Part shown: positions 9,404 to 20,448 of the stretch, piece by piece
Layout: each line of letters starts with the position of its first letter
How positions within the stretch are numbered: position 1 is the stretch's first letter
DNA from: Dethiosulfatibacter sp.
Lineage (GTDB): Bacteria; Bacillota_A; Clostridia; Tissierellales; Dethiosulfatibacteraceae
Direction: 5' to 3'
Assembly (NCBI GenBank): GCA_019084435.1
Contig: JAHRFV010000319.1
Coordinates: 1-30,249 of the forward strand
Length of the DNA stretch: 30,249 nucleotides
Translations under genes and position numbers: made by a program
Notes under the pieces: model-generated
The model's database searches: none
Seen by the model: only the letters and a program-made list of their open reading frames with translations
What the model was told of the DNA's origin: nothing

Positions 9404-9432
9404 TTGACATTGTAATTAGAGTGTATTATTCT
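9404..9432 (+). promoter_or_regulatory. Sigma-A promoter of leader peptide / ABC exporter unit
   Basis: TTGACA at 9404-9409 and TATTCT at 9427-9432 are separated by exactly 17 nt. No other convincing promoter lies between here and the first ABC gene, so this promoter probably drives the leader and, if termination is avoided, the exporter genes. The promoter at 19376 has the same architecture. Confidence 0.8.
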
Positions 9433-9465
9433 GGATATGGAAAAATAATAATGAGGAGGATAAAG

Positions 9466-9579
9466 ATGATTAAAATATTCATGCAAACTATAGGAATTTC
9501 ATATGCAAGAACAGCACAAGGCATCAGTGCGCCTGTTTTTAATCTGTTTACACAGCCTCCGTATGTTGGTATTAAGTAG
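9466..9579 (+). CDS. 37-aa leader peptide with C-terminal FTQPPYVGI motif
   Basis: A short ORF, ATG 9466 behind GAGGAGGA at 9453-9460, ending with TAG. It is basic, without signal peptide or obvious membrane segment. Its end, F-N-L-F-T-Q-P-P-Y-V-G-I-K, matches the end of a second small ORF at 19442 (F-R-T-F-I-Q-P-P-N-V-G-I), while the rest of the two peptides diverges. The DNA coding for F-T-Q-P (9546-9558) is complementary to the 5' arm of the terminator downstream. Position after a promoter and before two terminators and an ABC exporter, without another gene start, points to a regulatory leader peptide rather than a product with its own function. Consecutive prolines are known to slow ribosomes. 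A peptide with a separate activity, such as a signal, cannot be excluded. Confidence 0.8.
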   Translation: MIKIFMQTIGISYARTAQGISAPVFNLFTQPPYVGIK

Positions 9580-9606
9580 AATCAAAGCAATATTTTGATA
9601 ATATTT

Positions 9607-9641
9607 AACCGCAGGCTGTTTAAACAATCCTGCGGTTTTTT
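9607..9641 (+). terminator. Intrinsic terminator T1 (locus 1)
   Basis: AACCGCAGG pairs with CCTGCGGTT around an inner TGT-TTAA-ACA hairpin, followed by six T at 9636-9641. It lies 27 nt after the leader stop and upstream of the exporter start. Confidence 0.88.
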
Positions 9642-9652
9642 CAATTCTATAT

Positions 9653-9675
9653 CGCAGGGTAACCCTGCGGTTTTT
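9653..9675 (+). terminator. Intrinsic terminator T2 (locus 1)
   Basis: CGCAGGG and CCCTGCG form a perfect 7-bp stem with a TAA loop, followed by G and five T. It ends only 33 nt before the TTG start of the first ABC gene, leaving no room for an independent promoter after it. Confidence 0.82.
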
Positions 9676-9707
9676 GTGTTTTGAAAGACAATTATGGAGG
9701 TGAAGAC

Positions 9708-11480
9708 TTGAAAAAACTTAGTAAACTATGGCATTTTATGAAAAACAACAGAGGTAAGTATATTCTATCGATCATATTCATGGGCAAATCTGTAGCTTTT
9801 TCATTAATGGTGCCAGTCATTATACAGATGGTAGTCGATTCATTCATTGGTGAGTTACCATCGGAGTATTTATTTATCCAACGAATCATTCAGATGCCGG
9901 GAGGAAGGGAATATGTCCGTAACAACCTATGGATTGGCGGGATTGCGATTATTATCGTTACTGCGATCTATGGCCTCTTTCTATTCCTGTCAAACAGATT
10001 GTCTGCCGAAGCGTCTGAAGATATTGCCAAGAATATAAGAGATAGGGTTTATGATCATATCCAGCAGATGCCTTTTGACTATCACAAAAGTTCTGACACA
10101 GGGGATTTACTGCAAAGAGCCACCTCAGATGTGGAGACAGTCAGACGTTTTTTGTCCATACAACTCATGGAGGTAGGAAGAGCAGTTTTCATGGTTATTA
10201 TCGCCCTTTATTTCATGCTTCAGATAAGCTGGAAAATGACTGTAGCGGCTATGATACTGACACCCATCATTTTTTTCTTTGGTTACATATTCTTTCTTAA
10301 AGTCCAAAAGGCTTTTAAGATATCTGATGAAGCAGAAGCTGAATTATCGACAGTGATACAGGAAAACCTGCACGGGACAAGAGTGGTTCGAGCTTTTGCC
10401 AGAGAAAAATTCGAGATCGAGAAATTCAAAGAAAAGAACAAATCATATGCAGAAAAAACCTACAGACTCATCAAATACCTGGCTTATTATTGGTCTATTT
10501 CAGATTTTATTTCACTTGCATCCATTGGGCTTGTGCTGGTATCTGGAGTTTATTTCACCTATATGGGAGAGATAACCCTGGGAGCGATCATAGTGTTTAT
10601 TCAATATGAATACCGACTTCTCTGGCCTATCAGGCAACTGGGAAGAATTCTCTCGGATTTGGGAAAGGCTATCGTATCATCTGATAGAATCCAAGAAATA
10701 TTGGATGGTGAGATCGAAACAGACAAAGAAAATGAAACAACGCCAGAAATCAAGGGAGAGATTGTGTTTGATGATGTTTCCTTTGCTTACCCTGACAATT
10801 TCGAACGGAAGGTGCTGGACCATGTTTCTTTTTCAGTAAGAAAAGGAGAAACGGTAGCGGTCATTGGCAGGACAGGGTCAGGAAAATCCTCGCTGATTCA
10901 TTTGCTGGGGCGTCTCTATGATGTGGATGACGGTCGGATCATAATTGATGGCGTAGATATCAAAAACATCCAGAAAAAGTGGCTTAGAAAACATATAGGT
11001 ATTGTCTTGCAGGAACCATTCTTGTTTTCAAAAACCATCAAAGACAATATCAATTTTAGCAGTCAGCAATCAGAAAACGCCGTTTTTGAAGCTGCTAAGA
11101 TTGCCTCAGTACATGATGTTATTAAGGAATTTGACAAGGGTTATGACACCCTTGTTGGCGAAAAGGGTGTCACGTTGTCAGGAGGACAGAAACAAAGGCT
11201 GGCAATAGCTAGAACACTGGTCAATGATTATCCCATCCTTGCATTTGACGACTCTTTGAGTGCGGTGGACACAGAAACGGACATTGCTATCAGAAAAGCT
11301 TTGTCAGAGAGAAAGAAAGACATCACTACATTCATCATCTCCCATAGGGTAGCTTCTGTCTATGACGCCGACAATATATTGGTCGTCGAAGACGGCAAGA
11401 TTATCGAGAGAGGAAACCACGCCGAATTGATGGCTTTAGGCGGTTACTACAAACGGATCTGGGATATCCAGATGGCGTAG
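9708..11480 (+). CDS. Heterodimeric ABC exporter subunit 1, degenerate ATP site (YheI/BmrC-like)
   Basis: Fused exporter: an N-terminal six-helix membrane domain (about residues 1-330) and a C-terminal ATPase. Visible motifs are Walker A GRTGSGKSS (residues 387 on), signature LSGGQKQR (490-497) and Walker B ILAFDDSLSAVD. In the Walker B the catalytic Glu is replaced by Asp 515, the hallmark of the degenerate half of heterodimeric exporters. I chose TTG 9708 because GGAGGTGA at 9697-9704 sits just before it; an upstream TTG at 9681 has no binding site. Length is 590 aa. It pairs with the next gene, 17 nt downstream. The leader and tandem terminators before it resemble the known bmrB-bmrC-bmrD arrangement of B. 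subtilis, in which the pump is induced by ribosome inhibitors. Substrates cannot be read from the sequence. Confidence 0.93.
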   Translation: MKKLSKLWHFMKNNRGKYILSIIFMGKSVAFSLMVPVIIQMVVDSFIGELPSEYLFIQRIIQMPGGREYVRNNLWIGGIAIIIVTAIYGLFLFLSNRLSAEASEDIAKNIRDRVYDHIQQMPFDYHKSSDTGDLLQRATSDVETVRRFLSIQLMEVGRAVFMVIIALYFMLQISWKMTVAAMILTPIIFFFGYIFFLKVQKAFKISDEAEAELSTVIQENLHGTRVVRAFAREKFEIEKFKEKNKSYAEKTYRLIKYLAYYWSISDFISLASIGLVLVSGVYFTYMGEITLGAIIVFIQYEYRLLWPIRQLGRILSDLGKAIVSSDRIQEILDGEIETDKENETTPEIKGEIVFDDVSFAYPDNFERKVLDHVSFSVRKGETVAVIGRTGSGKSSLIHLLGRLYDVDDGRIIIDGVDIKNIQKKWLRKHIGIVLQEPFLFSKTIKDNINFSSQQSENAVFEAAKIASVHDVIKEFDKGYDTLVGEKGVTLSGGQKQRLAIARTLVNDYPILAFDDSLSAVDTETDIAIRKALSERKKDITTFIISHRVASVYDADNILVVEDGKIIERGNHAELMALGGYYKRIWDIQMA

Positions 11481-11497: not shown

Positions 11498-13321
11498 ATG
11501 TCCGATTATGAATTTCAAGAACAAGACTATTCAAAAAAAATAGATATGAAAATTTGGAAAAAAATCTTCAAATACCTAATCCGTTACAAGAAACTGGTGG
11601 CAATCCTTATCTTTTTCATGATCAACCTGGCTCTTGCGGATGCAATATTCCCTCAAATGACCCAAAGAGCAATCGATGATTTTATAGTCCCGGGTCAGCT
11701 TGAAGGTCTGGAAAAATTCATACTTCAATTTTGCCTATTAATTGTGTGGCAATCGCTTAATATATTCATTTTCATATCGACAGCTGGAAAAATCGAGATG
11801 AATTTGACCTATGACATCAGAGAAGAGGCATTTGATAAGCTTCAAAAATTATCATTCTCATATTATGACAGGACACCTACAGGCTGGATAATGGCACGGA
11901 TGACATCTGACACTAGGAGACTAGGAGAAATTATTTCCTGGGGAATAGTTGATATTGTGTGGGGATTTTCCCTGATGATTATCATTGCGGGTTTTATGCT
12001 TGCATATAATTTGAAGCTGGCTTTGCTGACCTTATCAGTTGTTCCTGTGCTAGCTATACTAAGCATATACTTTCAAAAGAAAATATTAGAGGCTTATCGT
12101 GTCGTAAGAAAAATCAACTCAAGGATTACAGGCTCATTCAGTGAAGGTATTTCAGGCGCTATTACCACCAAAGTGCTAGTTGGAGAAGAAAAACACCTGA
12201 ATGAGTTCAAAGAGATCACAACAGATATGAAGCGATCGTCAATAAGAGCAGTCATCTTCTCGGCATTGTTTCTGCCTATTGTTTTGACACTTTCAAGTGT
12301 CGCTATAGCCCTAGTAGTATGGTCAGGAGGCAACAGTGTCATCCAGGGTGTGATCACGTATGGTACTCTAGTGCTGTTTATCTCCTACGCCACCCAATAC
12401 TTCGAACCTATCAGAGAGGTTGCCCGAGTCATAGCTGAATTTCAGCAGGCACAGGCTGCGGCAGAGAGGGTCATATCCCTGATTGACGAAGAGATGGACA
12501 TATACGACACCCAGGAAGTCCAGGAAAAATACGGCACTATATTGGAGCCTAAAAAGTCCAATTGGGATGAGCTAAATGGAGACATTGATTTTAAAAACGT
12601 GTCATTCAGGTATAAGAACGGTGAAGAGGTCTTGAAAAGCTTCAACCTGTCAGTCAAGCAAGGCCAGAGCATCGCTCTGGTGGGAGAGACAGGGTCAGGG
12701 AAAAGTACAATTGTAAACTTGATATGCAGATTCTACGAGCCGACAGAGGGATTAATTGAAATAGATGGCGTGGATTACCGAAGCAGGTCAATTGCGTGGC
12801 TTCATGAAAATATCGGCTATGTGTTGCAAGCGCCTCATCTCTTTAGCGGGACTATTGAAGACAATATAAGATACGGAAAACTGGATGCAACACAAGAAGA
12901 GATAATGGAAGCGGCTAAGCTGGTCAATGCCCATGAGTTTATCATGAAGTTTCCAGAGACCTATCAGACACAGGTAGGAGAAGGAGGAGGAAAGCTTTCA
13001 ACCGGAGAGAAACAACTCATATCATTCGCAAGAGCGATTATATCAAATCCTAGAATATTTGTCCTGGATGAAGCCACTTCATCCATTGACACTCAGACAG
13101 AGAGAATGATACAAGACGCAATAGAAAAAGTCCTCCAGGGGAGGACCTCCTTTGTTATTGCCCACAGGCTATCTACCATAGTAAACTCAGATAGAATATT
13201 GGTCATTGAAAAGGGAGAAGTGGTTGAGGAAGGAACTCATGAAGAGTTGATGGGTATAAAAGGACACTATCACAACCTATATACCAATCAGTACAGGGAG
13301 AATGCCTTTAAAGCACTCTAA
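11498..13321 (+). CDS. Heterodimeric ABC exporter subunit 2, canonical Walker B (YheH/BmrD-like)
   Basis: Partner of the previous gene, 607 aa, with a longer hydrophilic N-terminus, six predicted membrane helices and a C-terminal ATPase. It has Walker A GETGSGKST (residues 396 on), the degenerate signature LSTGEKQ (500 on), and Walker B IFVLDEATSSID with the catalytic Glu at 525. A weak signature here and a weak Walker B in the partner together make one dead and one live ATP site, as expected for a heterodimer. TAGGAGG precedes ATG 11498. The stop overlaps the convergent VOC gene by 4 bp, and no terminator is seen between them. Confidence 0.93.
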   Translation: MSDYEFQEQDYSKKIDMKIWKKIFKYLIRYKKLVAILIFFMINLALADAIFPQMTQRAIDDFIVPGQLEGLEKFILQFCLLIVWQSLNIFIFISTAGKIEMNLTYDIREEAFDKLQKLSFSYYDRTPTGWIMARMTSDTRRLGEIISWGIVDIVWGFSLMIIIAGFMLAYNLKLALLTLSVVPVLAILSIYFQKKILEAYRVVRKINSRITGSFSEGISGAITTKVLVGEEKHLNEFKEITTDMKRSSIRAVIFSALFLPIVLTLSSVAIALVVWSGGNSVIQGVITYGTLVLFISYATQYFEPIREVARVIAEFQQAQAAAERVISLIDEEMDIYDTQEVQEKYGTILEPKKSNWDELNGDIDFKNVSFRYKNGEEVLKSFNLSVKQGQSIALVGETGSGKSTIVNLICRFYEPTEGLIEIDGVDYRSRSIAWLHENIGYVLQAPHLFSGTIEDNIRYGKLDATQEEIMEAAKLVNAHEFIMKFPETYQTQVGEGGGKLSTGEKQLISFARAIISNPRIFVLDEATSSIDTQTERMIQDAIEKVLQGRTSFVIAHRLSTIVNSDRILVIEKGEVVEEGTHEELMGIKGHYHNLYTNQYRENAFKAL

Positions 13322-19375: not shown

Positions 19376-19404
19376 TTGACATCAGCATTGAAGTACGCTA
19401 TCCT
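19376..19404 (+). promoter_or_regulatory. Sigma-A promoter of second leader unit
   Basis: TTGACA at 19376-19381, 17 nt, TATCCT at 19399-19404. Another TTGACA lies just upstream at 19362-19367 without a matching -10. Between this and the copA promoter (19232-19376) I see only AT-rich DNA with no gene. Confidence 0.8.
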
Positions 19405-19441
19405 ATTTAAGGATAAAAAATACTATAAAGGAGGAATTGAA

Positions 19442-19564
19442 ATGATCATGATGATATTAGGAACAATCAGAACAGCATCAGATGTAAGTGTCGACAACGG
19501 GATAATTGTATCTAATTTTAGAACGTTTATACAGCCTCCAAATGTGGGAATTATAGGAAAATAA
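19442..19564 (+). CDS. 40-aa leader peptide with C-terminal FIQPPNVGI motif
   Basis: A short ORF behind AAAGGAGGAATTGAA with ATG 19442. Its end, F-R-T-F-I-Q-P-P-N-V-G-I-I-G-K, matches the 37-aa leader at 9466 in spacing and in the residues F, F, QPP and VGI, while the N-terminal halves differ. The DNA around the motif is also conserved (GTTTAYACAGCCTCC in both). It is followed by the same type of tandem terminators. I read it as a paralogous regulatory leader. The genes downstream are microproteins, not an exporter. Confidence 0.78.
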   Translation: MIMMILGTIRTASDVSVDNGIIVSNFRTFIQPPNVGIIGK

Positions 19565-19582
19565 TTTTTCTCTGTAAATATC

Positions 19583-19619
19583 AACCGCAGGCTTGTGTAA
19601 ACACACCCTGCGGTTTTTT
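19583..19619 (+). terminator. Intrinsic terminator T1 (locus 2)
   Basis: AACCGCAGG and CCTGCGGTT enclose an inner GTG-TAAA-CAC hairpin, followed by six T at 19614-19619. It lies 18 nt after the leader stop. Confidence 0.88.
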
Positions 19620-19628
19620 AGTACCTAA

Positions 19629-19654
19629 ACCGCGGGGGAACCTGCGGTTTTTTT
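19629..19654 (+). terminator. Intrinsic terminator T2 (locus 2)
   Basis: CCGCGGG (19630-19636) and CCTGCGG (19641-19647) pair over 7 bp with one G-U and a GGAA loop, followed by seven T. Confidence 0.84.
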
Positions 19655-19828: not shown

Positions 19829-19954
19829 ATGAACAGAAAATCGAATATGATAATAGAGAATCGAAATAATAGCAAAAAATCAAATAGTATTTTTGATAAC
19901 GAAATTATAAAAGAAAATCCTGAATTATGGGGAAAACTGATTTGGAGGATCTGA
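19829..19954 (+). CDS. Microprotein 1 of cluster (41 aa)
   Basis: ATG 19829 behind AAGGAGGT. The product is polar, rich in Asn, Lys and Ser in its first half, ending P-E-L-W-G-K-L-I-W-R-I. It has no membrane segment, no cysteine and no family I recognise. Its stop overlaps the next start (TGATG), so the two are translationally coupled. It does not clearly share the W-x-x-L-x-E-G motif of the three genes that follow. Confidence 0.6.
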   Translation: MNRKSNMIIENRNNSKKSNSIFDNEIIKENPELWGKLIWRI

Positions 19955-20088
19955 TGGAAAACTGGAAATTATTGGAAGACGGAAGAAAATTGTTTATGAG
20001 ATTGGAATATAAAAATAGAGAAAAAATGCCAAAGAGAAATCTTGAATATAGAATAATAGAAAACTTTCACGATTTTAGGCAGAAATAA
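19954..20088 (+). CDS. Microprotein 2 of cluster (44 aa), WxxL-EGR motif
   Basis: ATG 19954 overlaps the previous stop; TTGGAGGAT at 19941-19949 is its binding site. The N-terminus M-E-N-W-K-L-L-E-D-G-R-K-L-F-M-R-L-E-Y-K-N matches that of the next gene at about 12 of 20 positions, and more loosely the third. The C-terminal half is variable and charged. It is soluble and basic. No known family recognised. Confidence 0.65.
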   Translation: MENWKLLEDGRKLFMRLEYKNREKMPKRNLEYRIIENFHDFRQK

Positions 20089-20100
20089 TTGGAGGATATG

Positions 20101-20226
20101 ATGAAAAATTGGAAAATATTAAAAGAAGGCCGAAACCTATATAAAAATATAGAATACAAGAACAACAGGAGCAAGCAAGCCGATGATTATCCATTTGGCG
20201 TGCTGAGAGATCTACCGAGGTTTTAA
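20101..20226 (+). CDS. Microprotein 3 of cluster (41 aa), WxxL-EGR motif
   Basis: ATGATG at 20098-20103 behind TTGGAGGAT; either ATG may start it. The N-terminus M-K-N-W-K-I-L-K-E-G-R-N-L-Y-K-N-I-E-Y-K is clearly paralogous to microprotein 2. The end is different (P-F-G-V-L-R-D-L-P-R-F). The gap to the previous stop is 12 nt. The repetition of gene plus identical binding site suggests tandem duplication under selection for protein sequence. Confidence 0.65.
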   Translation: MKNWKILKEGRNLYKNIEYKNNRSKQADDYPFGVLRDLPRF

Positions 20227-20246
20227 TCGACTGATTGGAGGACATG

Positions 20247-20369
20247 ATGAATAAAAGAACATGGTTAGGGGAGGGAAAGGTAGTTTTTAGAAAAATGGAG
20301 CATGGAAAGCCACCCAGTACCGAAGAAAAATATAATCGGGAAGAAAGCCTATACAGACCACTTGTATAG
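20247..20369 (+). CDS. Microprotein 4 of cluster (40 aa), WL-EG motif
   Basis: ATGATG at 20244-20249 behind TTGGAGGAC. The N-terminus M-N-K-R-T-W-L-G-E-G-K-V-V-F-R-K-M-E-H keeps the W, L, E/D-G-K/R, aromatic and M/I/L-E positions of microproteins 2 and 3, so it is a more distant paralogue. Its last codons and stop lie inside an 8-bp hairpin (20348-20370). Function unknown. Confidence 0.62.
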   Translation: MNKRTWLGEGKVVFRKMEHGKPPSTEEKYNREESLYRPLV

Positions 20370-20398: not shown

Positions 20399-20448
20399 AG
20401 ACAGGATAAACAGCCTATATAAGTATCTGTTTATCCTGTCTTTTTTTT
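20399..20448 (+). terminator. Strong intrinsic terminator of the microprotein unit
   Basis: A perfect 15-bp stem (20399-20413 with 20427-20441), 13-nt loop and eight T (20441-20448). It separates the microprotein cluster from the citrate lyase operon, so the cluster is a transcription unit of its own. Confidence 0.92.

Follow-up and report, generated by a model that had tools for sequence, protein, structure and literature searches.

The described systems closest to the element analysed here are the leaders of bmrCD, vmlR and cplR. In Bacillus subtilis, the bmrB leader of bmrCD comprises a leader open reading frame (ORF), an antiterminator and a terminator before a heterodimeric ABC exporter, and when its leader could not be translated, expression was lower and lincomycin no longer induced it (PMC4191407). 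B. subtilis vmlR follows an anti-antiterminator/antiterminator/terminator logic, in which a ribosome arrested on the upstream ORF (uORF) frees the antiterminator (PMC9226507), and cplR of Clostridioides difficile is a clostridial instance of uORF-dependent attenuation of both transcription and translation, induced by ribosome-targeting drugs (PMC10201436). In addition, a survey of premature terminators predicted attenuators, the ABC-leaders, before ABC transporter operons, one of them before a multidrug exporter of lactobacilli (PMC2965389). Here we analysed a 30,249-nucleotide (nt) stretch of DNA from Dethiosulfatibacter sp. (contig JAHRFV010000319.1; in the following, the window), where a leader that resembles bmrB by description precedes the genes of a BmrC-like ABC exporter. 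We estimate a probability of roughly three in four that this module is a ribosome-controlled transcription attenuator with the Shine-Dalgarno (SD) sequence of the leader as one pairing arm, the signal likely being impaired translation.

Results

In the window, alpha-glucan genes lie 5' of promoter-like boxes, a leader ORF, two terminators and the exporter gene (all coordinates given are on the forward strand). A preliminary description of this DNA had listed the boxes, a 37-residue leader ORF and tandem terminators, and all of these were present on re-reading of the sequence. The boxes (TTGACA-17-TATTCT) lie at 9404-9432 and both also occur in loci L037 and L038; the scan that located them is by itself no evidence, because 13 sites were observed in 5 kb against 13.7 expected. 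In L038 the promoter stretch is duplicated in tandem. The leader ORF (9466-9579, 37 codons, MIKIFMQTIGISYARTAQGISAPVFNLFTQPPYVGIK) ends with a stop codon at 9577-9579, may alternatively start at an in-frame ATG at 9451, and has P0002 as a homolog as well as homologs in the L001 and L002 genomes. Its SD sequence AGGAGGA (segment S, 9454-9460) contains GGAGG at 9455-9459, which can pair with CCUCC at 9556-9560 in segment A (9546-9560). The remainder of the layout follows the five segments A to E proposed previously, where S, which pairs with the same A, had been missed. As claimed, A is complementary over 9546-9558 to segment B (9613-9625) at 12/13 positions, B lying inside the 5' arm and loop of terminator 1 (T1, the B:C hairpin, 9608-9636, followed by a U run). 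T1 is located 3' of the leader stop, i.e., outside the leader coding sequence. Segment C (9628-9636), the 3' arm of T1, can pair with segment D (9651-9659), the 5' arm of terminator 2 (T2, the D:E hairpin, 9651-9671, also followed by a U run), through 9 pairs, 2 of them G-U; the C:D pairing had thus been recognised, in a register one base off. A terminator scan of the module picked up T2 only, not T1.

Within the window alone the case for pairings beyond chance was weak, as S:A and A:B reached p=0.037 and p=0.126, respectively, against 300 dinucleotide shuffles of the leader region, and relatives were therefore used to settle the pairings. The exporter was found in 7/8 genomes of the family (E<=1e-120) and in 86/248 genomes of the order (E<=1e-140, 87 matches), and the DNA before the exporter was examined for 70 of these 87 matches, which together with the window made 71 regions. 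An SD sequence, an ORF of 12-60 codons and a hairpin could be parsed in 58/71; among these 58, S:A had a shuffle p<=0.01 in 41 and A:B in 28, while both reached p<=0.05 with overlapping A in 36. We then exchanged pairing partners among loci in 20000 permutations, excluding L087 and L102 and thus retaining 56 loci for S:A and A:B. The native partners were more stable than swapped ones both for S:A (mean -14.1 vs -12.3 kcal/mol, standard deviation 0.21, 0/20000) and for A:B (-13.7 vs -11.7 kcal/mol, standard deviation 0.25, 0/20000). The result was again 0/20000 in 12 representatives hand-picked for unlike S, and 1/20000 for S:A when only the 12 loci lacking the motif GGUCGU were swapped. For C:D the observed mean was reached in 0/20000 swaps among 46 loci, a set that left out L087, L102, seven mis-picked loci, and L039, L053 and L097, which have no second hairpin.

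The sequence changes behind these values are matched on both sides. GGUCGU stands before the leader start in 44/56 loci, and ACG(A/G)CCU, which complements it either strictly or with a wobble, in the leader region of 36/56; a typical form is AAGGAGGUCGUG with CACGACCUAUG, the latter being complementary as well to CCAUAGG-UGUG in the 5' half of T1. In the clade of the window, the S:A pairing is GGAGG with CCUCC. Changes flanking the SD sequence are matched in A as GGAGGC/GCCUCU (L039), GGAGGUU/AACCUCC (L041), GGAGGA/UCCUCC (L034), AGGCCAU/AUGGCCU (L088), GGUUGCGA/UCGCAACC (L096) and GGGUAA/UUACCC (L097), and in farther loci as GGUAGGAA/UUCCUGCC (L183, L197) and GGCAAAAA/UUUUUGCC (L198). Likewise, L146 and L152-L154 carry CGCAGG for CAUAGG in T1 and CCUGCG for CCUAUG in A. 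In two MAFFT alignments that were not fitted to structure (A1, 50 rows; A2, 46 rows), 91.4% and 93.3% of the S:A+T1 cells were paired compared to 29-47% for slid partners (29-46% in A2), as were 87.4% and 88.2% of the A:B cells compared to 21-55% (23-48% in A2); in A2, both-side changes occurred in 11/17 pairs of S:A+T1 vs 6.1 in shuffles. As judged from sequence, S:A, A:B, B:C and C:D coevolve across relatives and are pairings beyond chance there. The coevolving pairings make the antiterminator A:B and the intrinsic terminator B:C mutually exclusive, and in orthologs they uphold the earlier proposal that A:B plus C:D alternate with B:C plus D:E in a translation-coupled attenuation of the exporter. 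The SD sequence, the ORF and the position of the stop codon are conserved in relatives as well.

In the mechanism that we propose, four successive segments, S, A, B and C, would compete in the order of their transcription, with S:A as anti-antiterminator, A:B as antiterminator and B:C as terminator. The second terminator D:E is usually present and D could pair with C once A:B frees it, so that one decision would open both terminators. Without a ribosome, S:A would sequester A and transcription would end at T1/T2, and a ribosome on A or at the leader stop would mask A and let T1 form. A ribosome arrested at initiation or on the first codons would cover S and leave A free, leading to A:B, then C:D, and read-through into the exporter. 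In 47/47 loci, the leader stop follows the 3' end of S:A at a distance of 0-24 nt (median 11), hence a ribosome finishing the leader would overlie or abut A. We infer that the leader is translated and, from the switch logic and the genes controlled, that translation inhibitors, e.g., ribosome-targeting drugs, are the likely signal; the pump would presumably export such drugs.

Folding with an assumed ribosome footprint (P-site -15 to +15 masked) agreed with this model in direction. For this analysis and for the stop positions, L087, L102 and nine loci with mis-picked or odd hairpins were excluded, leaving 47 loci. The mean expected pairs of S:A, A:B and T1 were 6.4, 8.0 and 9.5 without a ribosome; 0.1, 11.6 and 7.6 with a ribosome on the start codon; 5.4, 7.9 and 9.6 with it mid-leader; 2.5, 3.7 and 9.8 with it on A; and 3.6, 3.8 and 9.4 at the last sense codon. 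The start-codon footprint raised A:B in 35/47 loci and lowered it in 0, and lowered T1 in 29 and raised it in 1, while a footprint on A lowered A:B in 40/47 and raised it in 6. In the window, the expected pairs of T1 numbered 9.2 in ribosome-free RNA, 1.4 and 2.1 with codons 1 and 3 occupied, respectively, and 9.7 with codon 35 occupied. With the transcript ending at 9680, the minimum structure was A:B+C:D with the ribosome on the AUG, while T1+T2 was lower without a ribosome (-60.0 vs -56.5 kcal/mol); with the ribosome on codon 35 the fold was T1+T2. When the growing transcript was folded, A:B had 12.8 expected pairs at 9632 and was replaced by T1 at 9638; A:B+C:D prevailed at 9662 and T1+T2 from 9668. 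The folding results thus point to termination in the absence of translation and after completed translation, and to read-through when a ribosome is held at the leader start, and the predicted inducer is accordingly a ribosome arrested on the leader start and not the absence of ribosomes.

The preliminary description had given no role to S; a ribosome pausing on Pro-Pro codons would cover A and allow T1 to form, and blocked initiation would expose A and cause read-through. It shares with the model above that A:B and C:D are real, and Pro-Pro is indeed present in the window, in L037 and L038, and in a second module of the window described below. However, the corresponding codons are Pro-Leu in L039, Thr-Ser in L041, Ser-Ser in L033 and L034, and, in many of the more distant relatives, Arg-Pro, although the nucleotides that pair are retained; since the codons are not conserved, Pro-Pro pausing was dropped. 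That a block of initiation alone exposes A is probably wrong, as S can pair with A when no ribosome is present, ribosome-free folding favours T1, and bmrB expression falls on loss of leader translation. The coevolution of S:A (0/20000 swaps) also speaks against an idle S, and we regard this explanation as unlikely. Less probable still is a drug-specific arrest by the nascent peptide as in Erm leaders, the RNA segments being merely the read-out: an SD sequence and an ORF are present in 58/71 regions, but leaders of 21-42 codons encode dissimilar peptides while the pairings persist and one RNA architecture is kept. Matches to the 37-residue peptide occur in only 2/249 genomes of the order and in one protein cluster beyond its own, so it is not the leader peptide by which the family is defined.

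A covariance model of S:A+T1 built from 50 leaders (R1, cut-off E<=0.01 in genomes of the order) matched 72/248 order genomes, up to 49 of which had supplied rows, and 20 stretches with R1 matches away from the exporter were taken for inspection. Of 22 matches outside the R1 alignment 19 were parsed, and A:B, although no part of the model, reached p<=0.05 in 15 of these 19; L150, L157 and L160 could not be parsed. R1 modules were found before MFS transporters (L142 twice, L145 and L158), RsgA (L155, 107 nt downstream), GNAT proteins (L143 and L149) and arrays of tiny ORFs, and an RlmB-like methyltransferase, scoring slightly below the curated cut-off, lies 682-683 nt downstream in L153 (behind tiny ORFs) and L156. 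L144 could be parsed, but its p values of 0.154 and 0.253 do not make it a convincing module. By eye, L152, L153 and L156 have three successive hairpins after the leader with similar CGCAG-type stems. In L160, a possible divergent leader, read by eye and not counted, precedes an ABC-F gene of the ribosomal-protection-like kind (SD sequence AGGAGGTAC, later GTACCCC, and T1 with CCATGGGTA).

A wider covariance model (R2, 46 rows, cut-off E<=0.001) matched 34/391 genomes of the class, including 3 suppliers of rows, and 14/398 of the phylum, 3 of them shared with the class matches and 1 a row supplier. Within 1500 nt downstream of the 44 places in the class, the sequence resembled the exporter at 21, Schlafen/AlbA_2 (a reference protein named by Pfam) at 8, EamA at 4, GNAT at 2 and an M16 peptidase at 1, and 8 places resembled none of the seven reference proteins. 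The 15 further places in the phylum gave a resemblance to the exporter at 9 (two of these weak, with 24-26% identity), GNAT at 4, none of the seven at 2, and Schlafen/AlbA_2, EamA and M16 at 0. The pairings were tested at 40 of the 44 class places, including one training locus (L162), of which 38 were parsed; S:A reached p<=0.05 in 33 and A:B, again not in the model, in 26, and L202 and L203 were not parsable. The script mis-picked the start codon in win2, L148, L149, L151, L159, L177, L178, L182 and L204, where pairings were scored regardless. At the Subdoligranulum (L205) and Acetoanaerobium (L206) exporters, R2 gave no match. With a strict DNA pattern, 7/391 genomes were matched vs 1 genome for the reversed control; one of its matches, L111, lies in GC-rich coding DNA and looks like chance. 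In L109/L163 (G453), the module precedes small ORFs of 59-60 amino acids, and no larger gene follows on the same strand within 1500 nt. The genes identified downstream are transporters, acetyltransferases and tiny proteins, not biosynthetic genes, and the leader peptides, read by eye, have no run of a single regulatory codon; an amino-acid-starvation attenuator of the trp or his type, which the layout of a leader ORF followed by an attenuator would allow, is thus highly improbable.

The window holds a second module at 19426-19619 (R1 match, 51.4 bits, E 1.2e-7), preceded by promoter-like boxes recognised by eye (TTGACA-17-TATCCT, 19376-19404). It comprises an SD sequence GGAGG (19430-19434), a leader ORF of 40 amino acids (19442-19564) and T1 (19583-19615), and its second terminator follows at 19629-19648. 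Further downstream are four tiny ORFs (19829-20369, 40-44 amino acids), three of them with the motif G-x3-[YF]-x2-[LIM]-E, then a hairpin (20400-20440) and a gene cluster with citrate-lyase subunits; this order is kept in L151 (G002). The motif is present in 26/38 listed tiny ORFs behind modules (12/14 loci) vs a mean of 0.1 in shuffled residues, a count that is a description rather than a test since it was from these ORFs that the motif had been derived. Motif-bearing tiny proteins of about 29-70 amino acids were observed in L146, L147, L148, L152, L153, L154, L166, L167, L179, L185 and L186 and at 19954-20369 of the window, and the four that were scanned (one from L166, the others from the window) had no Pfam match.

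The first exporter subunit, BmrC-like, is encoded at 9708-11480, its likely start being a TTG at 9708 preceded by GGAGGTG (an earlier in-frame TTG lies at 9681), and the second at 11498-13321. The two adjacent genes differ in their Walker B letters (LAFDDS in the first subunit vs FVLDEA in the second), as is known from heterodimeric exporters in which one site is degenerate. Solved homologs include YheI (BmrC) and YheH (BmrD) for the first subunit and YheH for the second, and the pair is thus a heterodimeric BmrCD-like exporter. L001 and L002 (94% exporter identity) retain the arrangement of the window. By eye, an additional SD sequence and a very short ORF lie between T2 and the exporter in L048, L049, L053, L062, L064, L065 and L073, possibly a further control layer.

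Discussion

Several observations weigh against a ribosome-controlled attenuator with an SD arm. In the window itself A:B is not beyond chance and S:A consists of 5 contiguous pairs plus a few. In the alignments, double-change pairs of A:B were no more frequent than in shuffles (375/500 and 81/500), and the same was true of its pair types (486/500 and 488/500). Shared descent of the sequences inflates the pairing and coevolution measures, so that changes between unlike pairing types carry most weight. No second terminator was detected in L039, L053 and L097, and some second hairpins in the C:D test look mis-picked, e.g., in L049, L054 and L060. In the footprint folding, T1 remained the prevailing structure at equilibrium in many loci even when the start codon was occupied (mean 7.6 expected pairs vs 9.5 without a ribosome), and read-through would thus need a kinetic persistence of A:B. 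Nor did a mid-leader ribosome favour A:B, which was lower than with the start-codon ribosome in 37/47 loci and higher in 3, so stalling in the middle of the leader would require a second ribosome waiting behind the first. Finally, in the exporter ortholog L040 (G006), a terminator directly follows the promoter boxes, and leader ORF, S and A are missing. L040 would suit the alternative that T1 and T2 simply terminate the amylase gene upstream and that the ORF is spurious, as does their position after that gene, but promoter boxes lie between the amylase gene and the terminators, S:A, A:B and C:D coevolve, and the module recurs ahead of unrelated genes, which leaves this explanation hardly any probability.

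If the attenuator with an SD arm is true, the module would be a compact, peptide-independent sensor of ribosome arrest at the leader start, and its independence of the peptide could let a single module answer to several classes of drug. Related switches before other clostridial genes suggest a shared sensing of stalled protein synthesis. We speculate, somewhat short of an even chance, that this one cis-element defines a translation-stress regulon across Clostridia, comprising pumps, ribosome-related proteins, acetyltransferases and arrays of a so far unrecognised family of tiny proteins that may act in the response. Recurrence of the module before pumps and genes of unknown role would offer a way to list such a regulon from sequence, and draws attention to tiny proteins without Pfam matches.

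With regard to known families, none in Rfam 15 reached its gathering score in the module of the window, and at 20 loci searched with E<=0.5 the three matches were all far below gathering scores; a known riboswitch or T-box was rejected for this lack of a match. The ABC-leaders, compared by description only, are given no leader-SD pairing in the parts of the survey drawn on here (PMC2965389). As far as the bmrB description was used, its terminator lies within the leader coding region and its predicted anti-antiterminator within bmrB nt 60-162, whereas here T1 follows the stop codon, the leader's own SD sequence takes the part of the anti-antiterminator, and C:D can open an additional terminator (PMC4191407). 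The predicted termination without leader translation would agree with the lowered bmrB expression and the lack of lincomycin induction in that case. For vmlR, the same limited comparison gives a 3-codon uORF and an SD sequence that is single-stranded before the hairpin, upstream of an ABC-F gene, in contrast to a leader of 37 codons whose SD sequence is itself a pairing arm (PMC9226507); the predicted read-through with a start-arrested ribosome would agree with vmlR, whose anti-antiterminator is kept from forming by ribosome arrest on the uORF. The cplR leader, on the text consulted, differs in its 3-codon uORF and in a terminator hairpin by which the cplR SD sequence is sequestered as well (PMC10201436), so the window leader, with 37 codons, is not of the three-codon uORF type of vmlR and cplR. 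In the portions used of the open PMC full texts, a leader whose own SD sequence is the anti-antiterminator arm is not described for bmrB, vmlR, cplR or TopAI-YjhQ (PMC12121999). In conclusion, we file the module as one that would work like the bmrB, vmlR and cplR attenuators, with the leader's own SD sequence as anti-antiterminator arm as its new feature.

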